This document shows, in pieces, positions 44,908 through 48,256 of a DNA stretch of 48,256 nt. The position numbers and the translations under genes were made by a program. Position 1 is the stretch's first letter. Each line of letters starts with the position of its first letter. The stretch comes from Slackia sp. (GTDB taxonomy: Bacteria > Actinomycetota > Coriobacteriia > Coriobacteriales > Eggerthellaceae). Under the pieces are notes generated by a model. It did no database searches. It worked only from the letters and a program-made list of their open reading frames with translations, and was not told where the DNA came from. The DNA lies in the NCBI GenBank assembly GCA_030525985.1, contig JAUNDR010000010.1:1-48256 (forward strand). The letters are read 5' to 3'.

Positions 44908-45354
44908 TTAACCCTCGATCGAGATGAGGCGCTTCGCCTCTTCGGGGGCGGGAAGTTCTTTTTTCGGAACGACGATGCGCAGGATGCCGTCTTCGAATTT
45001 CGCGCGGATGTCGTCTTCCGAGATGTCTTCGCCGACATAGAAGCTGCGACGGCAGCTGCCCGTGAAGCGCTCCTTGCGCAGGTACGTGCCGTTATCGGAT
45101 TTCTCCTCGGTGGCCGACTCGGTGCTTGCCTGGATGGTGAGATATCCGTCCTGCAATTCGGCATGGACGTTTTCCTTCTTGAATCCCGGCAGGTCGATGT
45201 CGAATTCGTAAGCCTTGTCGGTCTCTTTGATATCGGTCTTCATCATGGCGGGCATGGCCTGCTGCTTGGCTTGCGGGCGTCCGCCGAACATATCGAAGGG
45301 GTCGCTCAAAAAATCGGCGAAGAAATCGTTCTTGCGTGCGGGAACCAACATCAT
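44908..45354 (-). CDS. Small heat-shock protein Hsp20 (alpha-crystallin domain)
   Basis: 148 residues. A short N-terminal arm (DFFADFLSDPFDMFGG) precedes the alpha-crystallin domain: MMKTDIKETDKAYEFDIDLPGFKKENVHAEL, then YLTIQASTE, and FEDGILRIVVPK with the conserved A-x-x-x-n-G-I-L-type motif. It holds unfolding proteins in the cytoplasm without ATP. I take the second ATG (45354), 5-6 nt from GGAG; the first ATG at 45360 is too close. A perfect CIRCE operator lies upstream, so HrcA control is expected. Confidence 0.93.
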   Translation of the reverse strand: MMLVPARKNDFFADFLSDPFDMFGGRPQAKQQAMPAMMKTDIKETDKAYEFDIDLPGFKKENVHAELQDGYLTIQASTESATEEKSDNGTYLRKERFTGSCRRSFYVGEDISEDDIRAKFEDGILRIVVPKKELPAPEEAKRLISIEG

Positions 45355-45449
45355 GGTCATCTCCTGTCTGTGCGGCGGATGCCATCTCGTAGGGCTCTTC
45401 GGTGCGGGATATGCTCTGCATCCGCTCGTCTTCTTCGTTTACGTTTCGC

Positions 45450-45464: not shown

Positions 45465-45491
45465 TTAGCACTCTGCAAGTGAGAGTGCTAA
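45465..45491. promoter_or_regulatory. CIRCE operator (HrcA site) for hsp20
   Basis: TTAGCACTC (45465-45473), 9-nt spacer, GAGTGCTAA (45483-45491): an exact match to the CIRCE consensus, extended by GTG/CAC on the outside to 12-bp arms. It sits 10 bp above the hsp20 -10, where bound HrcA would block RNA polymerase until heat shock. Confidence 0.96.
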
Positions 45492-45799
45492 CACGCAACC
45501 GTCCCGTTACCTTCTTCGCGATCGCACCGGGAGCGTATGTGCGCGTCCGCATCGTGGAATGCGTCGCAGGGGGGTAGGAGGGGCGTCGGTTTTCCTCGAT
45601 GGGATTCGTGCGATTCGTCATCGCGACCGCATCGCCCGGTTTCGTTGGACGACGCCGTCTGCCGACGGAGAAAAAACGCGCCGCCATCGGCACTATCTTG
45701 TGGTAAAGTGACCGCCATACGAAACGTCGGCGTCATGAATGCCGATGCGTTTGCCGATATCGGGCGATGTGCCCGTTCGTCCGTCCGAAAGGAGCTGCA

Positions 45800-45865
45800 A
45801 TGAACCAGATATCCGTGTTCGCGCCGATCGCTTCTTCTCGGGCATGGTGGTGGCGTAGCTTGTAG
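45800..45865 (+). CDS. Trp-rich leader peptide (attenuator)
   Basis: A 21-residue ORF beginning MNQISVFAPIASS and ending Arg-Ala-Trp-Trp-Trp-Arg-Ser-Leu-stop. AAAGGAG lies 7 nt before its ATG, so it should be translated well. Three Trp codons in a row in a 21-codon peptide followed by a terminator is the classic layout of a trp leader. Ribosomes stalling at these codons when charged tRNA-Trp is scarce would expose the antiterminator arm downstream. Here the downstream gene is a transporter. The gap before it (45492-45799) shows no other gene; a weak -10-like TAAAGT near 45704 may start the transcript. Confidence 0.88.
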   Translation: MNQISVFAPIASSRAWWWRSL

Positions 45866-45881
45866 TCGATCGGTCGATCGC

Positions 45882-45945
45882 GAGCTTTCGTCGCGTTTGC
45901 ATATCAAATGAAACGAATGGCTCCGGGCGACCGGAGCCATTTTTC
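45882..45945 (+). promoter_or_regulatory. Attenuator: antiterminator and terminator hairpins
   Basis: Terminator: AATGGCTCCGG (45916-45926) pairs with CCGGAGCCATT (45931-45941) over GCGA, followed by TTT. Competing antiterminator: GAGCTTTCGT (45882-45891) can pair with ACGAATGGCTC (45913-45923), which contains the left arm of the terminator; an inner TTTG/CAAA helps close it. The two cannot form together. The first arm starts 16 nt after the leader stop, as expected for release when the leader is fully translated. Confidence 0.85.
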
Positions 45946-46006
45946 GTAGAGCCCTCATGGGCGGAAAGTGCCTCGGCTGCATCGGGGCGTTATGGAAGGA
46001 AGACGC

Positions 46007-47344
46007 ATGGCAACATCAACCACCTCGCGCGATTCGTTCACTTCGCGCACGGCGTTCATCATCGCCTGCATCGGCTCTGCCGTCGGCATGAGCGCCATCT
46101 GGCTGTTTCCCTATCGCGTGGCGGAATTGGGAGGCGCGGCCTTTCTGATTCCGTATCTCATCTTCGTCGTTTTGCTCGGACTGACGGGTGTCATCGGCGA
46201 GATGGCGTTCGGTCGCGCCATGGGCACCGGTCCCATGGGGGCGTTTTCGAAGGCGCTCGAGATGCGCGGCGTGAAGCATGCGGGCCCGATCGGCAAGATC
46301 GTCGGCGCCATTCCCACGCTCGGGTCCCTTGGCATCGCCATCGGCTATTCGGTGGTGCTCGGCTGGTTTTTGAAGTATCTGCTCGCCGCAGGCACGGGCT
46401 CGCTTCTGCAGGTTCCCGATATGGGCGCTTACTTCGGCGGGCTTGCCAGCGATTTCGGCAGCGTGGGCTTTCATGCCGCGGCGCTTGTCGTCACGTTCGC
46501 CGTCATGTTGCTGGGCATCTCTCGCGGCATCGAGCGTCTGAACAAGATCATGATGCCGCTGTTCTTCGTGCTGTTCGTGATTATGCTCGTGCGCGTGGCC
46601 ATGCTGCCGGGGGCGTTCGAGGGCTACAAATACCTGTTCGTTCCCGATTGGAGCGCGCTTGCCAATCCCCAAACCTGGGTATTCGCTCTTGGCCAGGCGT
46701 TTTTCGGCCTTTCGCTTGCAGGAAGCGGCACGCTGGTGTACGGCAGCTATCTGAAAAAAGACGTGGACGTGGTGTCTTCCGCGAAAAACGTCGTGATTTT
46801 CTCCACGCTCGCGGCCGTGCTTTCGGCGATGATCGTGGTTCCCGCCGTGTTCGCGTTCGGTCTGGACACGCAGTCGGGCCCGCCGCTGATGTTCATCGCG
46901 TTGCCCCAGGTGTTCCAGGAGATGCCCGCGGGCGGAATCTTCTGCTTCGTGTTCTTCTTGGCGGTGGCGTGCGCGGCGATCACCAGCTTGGTGAACCTGT
47001 TCGAAACGCCGATCGAGGCGCTGCAGGAGCAGCTGCATCTCCCGCGCTGGGGCGCGGTGCTTATCGTCGCGGCCGTCGCATTCGGCGTGGGCGTGTTCAT
47101 TGAAAGCGGAGACGCGGTGAGCGCCTGGATGGATGCGGTTTCCATCTACGCCATTCCGCTCGGAGCGCTTTTGGCCGCCATCATGTTTTTCTGGGTATGC
47201 CCGAAGCACTTCGCCAAAGAGCAGGCGCAAACCGGCCGTGAGAAGAAGATCGGCGCATGGTTCGAGCCTATGACGAAGTATCTCTTCGTCGGCATCACTG
47301 CGGTGGTCATCGTGCTGGGCATCTTCTACGGAGGCATCGGATAG
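46007..47344 (+). CDS. NSS-family sodium:amino-acid symporter, probable tryptophan transporter
   Basis: 445 residues with about eleven hydrophobic segments, as in bacterial neurotransmitter:sodium symporters. Span 1 carries the unwound substrate/Na+ motif GSAVGMSAIWLFPYRVAELGGAAFLIPYL; span 6 has FALGQAFFGLSLAGSGTLVYGSYL. It imports a solute with Na+ across the cytoplasmic membrane. Control by a three-Trp attenuator implies tryptophan; TnaT of Symbiobacterium is a known Trp-transporting NSS member. The ATG at 46007 has GGAAGGAAG upstream; the frame from 45968 begins before that site. Substrate is inferred from regulation, not from residues. Confidence 0.88.
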   Translation: MATSTTSRDSFTSRTAFIIACIGSAVGMSAIWLFPYRVAELGGAAFLIPYLIFVVLLGLTGVIGEMAFGRAMGTGPMGAFSKALEMRGVKHAGPIGKIVGAIPTLGSLGIAIGYSVVLGWFLKYLLAAGTGSLLQVPDMGAYFGGLASDFGSVGFHAAALVVTFAVMLLGISRGIERLNKIMMPLFFVLFVIMLVRVAMLPGAFEGYKYLFVPDWSALANPQTWVFALGQAFFGLSLAGSGTLVYGSYLKKDVDVVSSAKNVVIFSTLAAVLSAMIVVPAVFAFGLDTQSGPPLMFIALPQVFQEMPAGGIFCFVFFLAVACAAITSLVNLFETPIEALQEQLHLPRWGAVLIVAAVAFGVGVFIESGDAVSAWMDAVSIYAIPLGALLAAIMFFWVCPKHFAKEQAQTGREKKIGAWFEPMTKYLFVGITAVVIVLGIFYGGIG

Positions 47345-47574: not shown

Positions 47575-48256
47575 ATGGTGGATGCGTCGCCTTCCGTGGT
47601 CGTCGATGCTCGCCTTTGCACGGGTTGCGGGCGATGCGTGAAAGACTGCTTCCCAGGGGTCATGCATATGGAGAACGGTTCGGCCGTTTGCCGCGTGTCG
47701 TGCATGGAATGCGGCCATTGCGTCGCGGTATGCCCCGAGGGCGCGGTTCGCATCGAAGGCTCCGATATGGATGGCGTCGAGGAATTCGAGGCTTCGACGT
47801 TCGGCGTGGAACCCGATCATTTGCTGCGATCCATGAAATTCCGTCGAAGCATCCGCTCTTTCAAGGACGGGCCGCTTGGCGAAGACATGCTGCATGCGCT
47901 GATCGAAGCGGGTCGCTATGCTCCTACGGCGCGCAATACGCAAGGCACCGAATTCCTGGTCATCCAAAACGAAATGCCGCAGCTTCAAGAGCTGCTGTGG
48001 CGCTGTATGCCCGCAGTCGTCGAAAGCATGGCAGGCGACCTTCCCGATTACGCCCGCATCTTCGGCGGCATGGTCAGACGTCATGAAGCGACGGGCGAAG
48101 ACGGCCTTCTGCTCGGCGCGCCGGCATTCGTGCTGGTGCTGACCGAGAATATGTGGGACGGCGGGTTGGCGGCCGCCAATATGGAGATGATGGCTGCGGC
48201 ATGCGGCGCGGGCGTGCTGCATTCGGGCTTCATGAAGCGCGTGATAGAGCGCAGTC
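47575..48256 (+). CDS. Ferredoxin-nitroreductase fusion (3' truncated by window edge)
   Basis: The frame is open from ATG 47575 to the window end (227 residues seen). Residues 1-60 carry two 4Fe-4S motifs: Cys15-18-21-25 (CTGCGRCVKDC) and Cys43-46-49-53 (CMECGHCVAVCPEG). From about 84 a nitroreductase-type FMN domain starts with MKFRRSIRSFKDGPL and EAGRYAPTARNTQGTEF. Such fusions accept electrons from ferredoxin clusters to reduce nitro, quinone or enoate compounds. GAAGGGG is 7 nt before the ATG. The C-terminal dimerisation part lies outside the window. Confidence 0.9.
   Translation, partial: MVDASPSVVVDARLCTGCGRCVKDCFPGVMHMENGSAVCRVSCMECGHCVAVCPEGAVRIEGSDMDGVEEFEASTFGVEPDHLLRSMKFRRSIRSFKDGPLGEDMLHALIEAGRYAPTARNTQGTEFLVIQNEMPQLQELLWRCMPAVVESMAGDLPDYARIFGGMVRRHEATGEDGLLLGAPAFVLVLTENMWDGGLAAANMEMMAAACGAGVLHSGFMKRVIERS

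Follow-up and report, generated by a model that had tools for sequence, protein, structure and literature searches.

A probable trp-type leader attenuator before an NSS symporter gene in Slackia, and a likely family of related attenuators on tryptophan importers across the Coriobacteriales

Leader-peptide attenuation is the textbook form of control of amino-acid biosynthesis. In Escherichia coli tnaCAB, in which tnaB encodes a Trp permease, high Trp induces expression through ribosome arrest and Rho, and one Trp codon is critical. The targets recorded in a 2005 survey of actinobacterial attenuators were trp operons, trpS, leuS, ilv, cys, and leuA, with no transporter among them (PMC1262725). 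A 2013 survey of Rfam attenuators likewise listed mostly biosynthesis enzymes as targets (PMC3766115), and the histidine leaders that have been reported from Firmicutes stand before his operons (PMC9413887). NSS genes of the Bacillus cereus group are preceded by Trp T-boxes, which have been used for substrate prediction (PMC2494555). A search of the open-access literature turned up no description of leader-peptide attenuation at a Trp importer gene or within the Coriobacteriales.

The window analyzed here is a 48,256-nucleotide stretch of DNA from Slackia sp., for which the original prediction, made from the sequence alone, had proposed a Trp attenuator in front of an NSS sodium symporter gene. 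Direct reading placed the 21-codon leader (SD, ATG, three consecutive Trp codons, and stop), the terminator hairpin, and the start of the symporter gene at the positions predicted, and a match to PF00209 confirmed the NSS family (Table 1). The symporter ATG lies behind GGAAGGAAG, and its stop codon occupies 47342-44. The string TGGTGGTGG occurs eight times in the window, but only the copy at the leader Trp codons falls within a short ORF with a ribosome-binding site. In 53 aligned leaders this string is nearly invariant, and the peptides are poorly conserved in sequence outside WWW; the ribosome-binding motif is common to all leader-bearing relatives. Farther upstream, TGNTARAGT is present in every Slackia NSS leader, 109-181 nt 5' of the Trp codons, and two TrpP leaders have TGATAAAGT upstream. 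The copy in the window could be an extended -10 element acting as the promoter of the leader RNA, a weak reading because a simple two-hexamer scan of the region found no sigma-70 consensus promoter. An exact CIRCE (HrcA operator) sequence, TTAGCACTC-N9-GAGTGCTAA, is located at 45465-45491, just upstream of a minus-strand Hsp20-like gene (44908-45360), and faces away from the NSS leader; at one related locus (L010), a partial CIRCE-like end precedes the NSS gene. Downstream of the symporter, positions 47575-48256 belong to a gene that runs off the window and whose product joins an N-terminal 4Fe-4S ferredoxin domain to a nitroreductase domain.

Table 1. Features of the leader and symporter gene in the window
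Feature	Position	Strand	Basis or detail
Candidate extended -10 promoter element TGGTAAAGT	45701-45709	+	Conservation upstream of leaders
SD/ribosome-binding site GAAAGGAG of leader peptide	45788-45795	+	Read from sequence
Leader peptide MNQISVFAPIASSRAWWWRSL, 21 codons	45800-45865	+	ATG 45800, stop TAG 45863-65; homologues at eight Slackia loci
Three consecutive Trp codons, presumed stall site	45845-45853 (45845-47/48-50/51-53)	+	Read from sequence
1:2 (protector/pause) hairpin, last Trp codons in its base	45850-45894	+	Folding
Region 2, 5' half of antiterminator	45872-45891	+	Folding; conservation in 53 leaders
Region 3 and loop, 3' half of antiterminator	45913-45932	+	Folding; GGUC:GACC forms in 52/53 leader folds, GAG..:..CUC arm in 49/53
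Intrinsic terminator and T tract	45916-45944 (stem 45916-45926 with 45931-45941, 10-11 bp)	+	Read from sequence; pair covariation
NSS-family (SNF) symporter, predicted Trp importer, 445 aa	46007-47344	+	PF00209, NF037979, MhsT 4us3

The terminator stem is followed directly by UUU, giving five T in all (45940-44). A simple terminator scan of the region left this plus-strand hairpin unflagged because two of the five T sit in the stem. The antiterminator had been predicted to pair 45882-45891 with 45913-45923; these positions do pair, but the true helix is about twice as long and joins the whole of 45872-45891 to 45913-45932 in the form GGUCG..CG.GAGCUUUCGU with ACGAAUGGCUC.CG..CGACC. The earlier list of hairpins, which correctly held the antiterminator and the terminator, lacked the 1:2 hairpin at 45850-45894. 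The GGTC...GACC fold has a free energy of -28.3 kcal/mol (z -4.25, with 1 of 200 shuffles as good), and the 161-nt whole leader folds with z -2.96. Because the antiterminator uses the terminator's 5' arm and loop together with the initial bases of its 3' arm, the two states are mutually exclusive. The element is not a product of chance, the decisive point being its conservation in relatives.

Comparison of sequences shows the leader and its alternative pairings, the conservation of these, a homologous element on trpP, and the lack of Trp biosynthesis genes; together these make it highly probable that the element is a ribosome-mediated transcription attenuator of the trp type, through which auxotrophs increase Trp import on starvation. 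Transcription would start upstream of 45800. With charged tRNA-Trp plentiful, the ribosome would pass the Trp codons, reach the stop at 45863-65, and cover the 5' end of region 2 (45872); region 3 would then pair with region 4, and the terminator (45916-45941) would halt RNA polymerase before the symporter. With Trp scarce, a ribosome stalled at 45845-45853 would leave region 2 free to pair with region 3, breaking the terminator and allowing the symporter to be transcribed. If no ribosome is loaded, the 1:2 hairpin would sequester region 2 and the terminator would form. The leader stop lies a few bases 5' of region 2, so a ribosome positioned there would, given usual footprint sizes, cover the start of region 2, and a stalled one would not. 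The peptides of S. equolifaciens and of the trpP leaders continue through region 2 and end at a TGA inside it (WWWRCSHAVGRS and MNWWWRGVETIGRS), so that a terminating ribosome would sit on region 2 itself. It is from this architecture that we infer ribosome stalling, as well as termination and its efficiency.

The WWW leader, region 2, and the terminator are found together at 8/8 of the closest Slackia NSS loci (the window's own, L004, L005, L006, L007, L011, L008, and L009), including those of S. faecicanis and S. equolifaciens. The WWW leader is absent from the NSS orthologues of S. isoflavoniconvertens (L010) and of genome G004, whose gene is 51% identical and which we take to be probably S. 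heliotrinireducens. None was found upstream of the NSS orthologues examined in other genera, Firmicutes included. The predicted placement of a Trp attenuator before an NSS importer is thus supported by the conserved WWW leader and switch, but among NSS orthologues the leader is confined to Slackia. Both the Trp codons and the alternative hairpins, whose loss in relatives would have spoken against the original prediction, are kept: WWW at all eight Slackia loci, and the terminator and antiterminator across the order.

Structure was evaluated in an alignment of 53 leaders set in terminator register (A3). In this alignment, which was fitted to the tested structure and is therefore biased in its favor, 87.8% of cells in the model structure are paired, 20 pairs are changed on both sides, and 0/500 shuffles reach any observed measure; the stronger parts are the count of compensatory changes and a control in which sliding the partner by one to three columns lowered pairing from 88% to 33-54%. 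Covariation had been proposed as a check on both hairpins, and it was borne out for one of them. In the terminator helix, compensatory change is seen in 11/12 aligned pairs, with 96.8% of cells paired across the 53 leaders, but the GGUC:GACC closing pairs of the antiterminator hardly vary and therefore provide conservation without covariation evidence. The duplex energy of region 2 with region 3 has a mean z of -2.1 versus shuffles, and 34 of the 53 leaders fall at or under 5%. A coarser criterion, a minimum of 7 bp joining region 2 to region 3, has no discriminating power because 828 of 1060 shuffles pass it. The 1:2 hairpin is clear in Slackia folds and weak over the order (9/53 leaders); its helix over the Trp codons is 96% paired with variation on one side only, and its inner helix has both-side changes in 6/6 pairs.

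A covariance model (R1) was built from eleven leaders, which it scored at 79-117 bits in a family-wide search. The same search returned a single additional strong match, where a WWW leader precedes a trpB-like gene in a different genus. Across the order, R1 matched 139 of 397 genomes, with many scores of 40-85 bits and a few false borderline matches, and in a phylum-scale search the strong scores were confined to the order, with outside-order matches at 31-34 bits. At the loci that were opened, the leader peptide mostly reads M..NWWWR....GR(S/R/L) followed by the stop, and the next gene is trpP-like. In the non-Slackia cases inspected, the downstream gene is nearly always a TrpP-type ECF importer and sometimes a tryptophan-synthase beta gene; in genomes G354 and G355, the leader precedes trpB and trpP follows it. 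A tblastn tally of 78 loci, some of which hold two genes and some of which repeat the same Slackia locus, gave 62 trpP-like, 6 trpB-like, and 10 NSS genes. The original prediction had presented an importer as an exceptional target. The element does precede an importer, but importers are the usual target in this order, and the NSS case is therefore one branch of a wider pattern. Many of the trpP-like genes fall under the Pfam gathering cut-off (18-24 bits), so the Trp specificity of that family is also a prediction. A related AWWW-type leader stands before a trpB-like (PALP) gene at L178, L247, L248, L249, L254, and L255, with trpP next at L248 and L249. Model matches at 24-32 bits are partly other terminators; those at L237, L250-L253, and L256 come without a Trp leader or trp gene.

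Within Slackia, a homologous attenuator precedes trpP in three genomes, in two of them in tandem with NSS. In these two (G006 and G010), a second WWW leader lies directly 3' of the NSS gene; it has the GGTC..GATCGTGAGC block and terminator of the first and leads into trpP. The attenuator-NSS-attenuator-trpP order can be seen at L007 and L165. The G010 TrpP protein matches PF17099 ('Tryptophan transporter TrpP') at 31.2 bits (cut-off 27.2), and an ECF-type ATPase gene follows trpP. S. isoflavoniconvertens carries the leader on trpP and none on its NSS gene, and no trpP was found in the genome from which the window comes. The tandem arrangement suggests a duplication in which the trpP leader gave rise to that of NSS. 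T-boxes occur on trpP of genome G004 (probably S. heliotrinireducens) and on trpB of genome G002 (L167 and L073), with AAUGGGCC (UGG) at the specifier position; they score 66.5 and 80.3 bits (E 1e-12 and 4e-16), short of the gathering score (93). In this one genus, two distinct RNA switches for Trp sensing stand in for each other. A model search of the leader locus found no T-box upstream of the NSS gene (a motif scan gave three pattern matches, L104-106), no Rfam leader family matched the window at gathering, and Trp_leader RF00513 had no match at E<=0.5 in the leader-carrying loci.

The distribution of Trp biosynthesis genes was compared with that of the element. trpD (TIGR01245) is absent from 12/12 Slackia genomes and present in 94 of 396 genomes of the order. 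A trpB gene over the cut-off was found in 1/12 Slackia genomes, namely G002, which is without a close NSS orthologue; the leader-bearing Slackia have neither trpD nor a true trpB. Across the order, trpD is present in about 9/137 attenuator genomes versus about 85/259 others (Fisher p 5e-10, uncorrected for relatedness and with the lists compared by hand), and its rarity in the former suggests that the element goes with Trp auxotrophy.

The symporter matches PF00209 at 159.2 bits (cut-off 27) and NF037979 at 89.4 bits. Its nearest named orthologue, from Slackia faecicanis DSM 17537, is 97% identical, and the closest solved structure is MhsT (4us3; E 4e-58). The GMGA of MhsT TM6 is replaced by AGxG in the orthologues, and almost every orthologue examined has Gly at the Met position, a change that would make space for a bulky substrate. 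In four genomes, those of Clostridium thermopalmarium, Firmicutes FC7, and two MAGs (one Tissierellaceae, one Spirochaetota), a tryptophanase-family gene is followed after 73-122 bp by an NSS orthologue with 59-64% identity. The C. thermopalmarium tryptophanase-family gene reaches 745.7 bits against a cut-off of 285, with the stricter tnaA equivalog cut-offs unreached. YheO-like PAS/HTH regulator genes flank tryptophanase-NSS or NSS loci in Clostridia/Tissierellia (L141, L143, L148, L153), and the two scanned (L143 and L153) match PF08348/PF13309. A Trp substrate is supported independently of the leader by the TrpP neighbors and homologous trpP leaders, the tryptophanase genes beside orthologues, and the loss of Trp biosynthesis genes. 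From these we infer Trp transport; the most likely role of the symporter is L-Trp uptake in a bacterium unable to make this amino acid.

The Na1 side-chain ligands of LeuT and MhsT are presumably Asn in TM1, Thr/Ser in TM6, and Asp/Asn in TM7. The aligned positions are substituted in the Slackia/Senegalimassilia branch only (compared in the window symporter, L003-L011, and L033-L035), with N to A/G in TM1, T/S to G in TM6, and D to S in TM7; the remaining NSS orthologues keep the Na1-site residues, L059 being a partial exception. Ion (Na+) coupling may therefore differ in this branch of the family.

A real attenuator could also serve a symporter for tyrosine, phenylalanine, a branched-chain amino acid, or indole, with Trp starvation acting as a general signal. 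NSS members vary in substrate, as illustrated by B. cereus paralogues with Leu, Trp, or Phe T-boxes (PMC2494555), and the substrate site was compared by sequence only. Such a substrate is nonetheless unlikely given the tandem with trpP under the same leader, the tryptophanase adjoining NSS in four distant genomes, the missing Trp biosynthesis genes, and the TM6 Gly in place of the Met of MhsT GMG, with its predicted space for a bulky side chain. The tryptophanase neighbors can also be taken to favor a TnaC-like induction, in which high Trp would arrest the ribosome on the nascent leader peptide and turn the gene on, and a Trp-containing leader before a Trp permease does resemble tnaCAB. The run of three Trp codons with an intrinsic terminator and a competing antiterminator is instead the anatomy of trpL, and the peptide, unlike an arrest peptide, is poorly conserved outside WWW; TnaC-like arrest was rejected on these anatomical grounds as very improbable.

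It is scarcely credible that the hairpin is a constitutive terminator or the 3' end of an upstream transcript, accompanied by a fortuitous WWW mini-ORF. The genome is GC-rich and the simple scan gave no sigma-70 consensus promoter, both of which would fit such an origin, but against it stand the opposite strand of the upstream Hsp20-like gene, the joint conservation of WWW, region 2, and terminator over 53 diverse leaders, and a TGNTARAGT element kept upstream of the Slackia NSS leaders. The trp-type attenuator is therefore the preferred reading, and the Slackia locus is likely to belong to an undescribed, order-wide family of Trp attenuators in Coriobacteriales. Instead of biosynthesis, this family would usually control Trp import, through ECF TrpP and, in Slackia, through NSS; the family would be tied to loss of the trp pathway, would have moved between unrelated importer families, and would trade places with Trp T-boxes within one genus. 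Coriobacteriales thus probably sense Trp shortage by a stalled ribosome and respond with import instead of synthesis.

A gut bacterial order that is mostly without the trp pathway appears to control uptake by attenuation, which has a bearing on gut competition for dietary Trp. The analysis also assigns a likely substrate to an NSS clade of Eggerthellaceae and many Lachnospiraceae/Clostridia, and its covariance model can serve as a marker for genes of Trp supply. The trpL mechanism itself is known; what counts as new is its apparent deployment in front of importers throughout an order, which is recorded neither in Rfam nor in the open-access literature searched.

Compared with E. coli trpL and the trp attenuators of Corynebacterium and Streptomyces (PMC1262725), the Slackia element has the same consecutive Trp codons, 2:3 and 3:4 hairpins, and intrinsic terminator, with a predicted 1:2 hairpin as well, but it would control an importer rather than biosynthesis and is unmatched by Rfam families. 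In tnaCAB, too, a leader with a Trp codon precedes an operon that includes a Trp permease gene. The symporter shares the NSS fold family of the bacterial Trp transporters MhsT (4us3) and TnaT (cited in PMC2494555), from which it differs by the change of GMG to AGxG in TM6 and by the three altered Na1-site positions of the Slackia/Senegalimassilia branch. TrpP (PF17099), the ECF-type Trp transporter that the homologous attenuator targets elsewhere in the order, belongs to a protein family unrelated to NSS. The Trp T-box of the B. cereus group (PMC2494555) is likewise an RNA switch for Trp starvation before an NSS gene; it binds uncharged tRNA directly and has no leader peptide, whereas the Slackia element would sense the shortage through translation.
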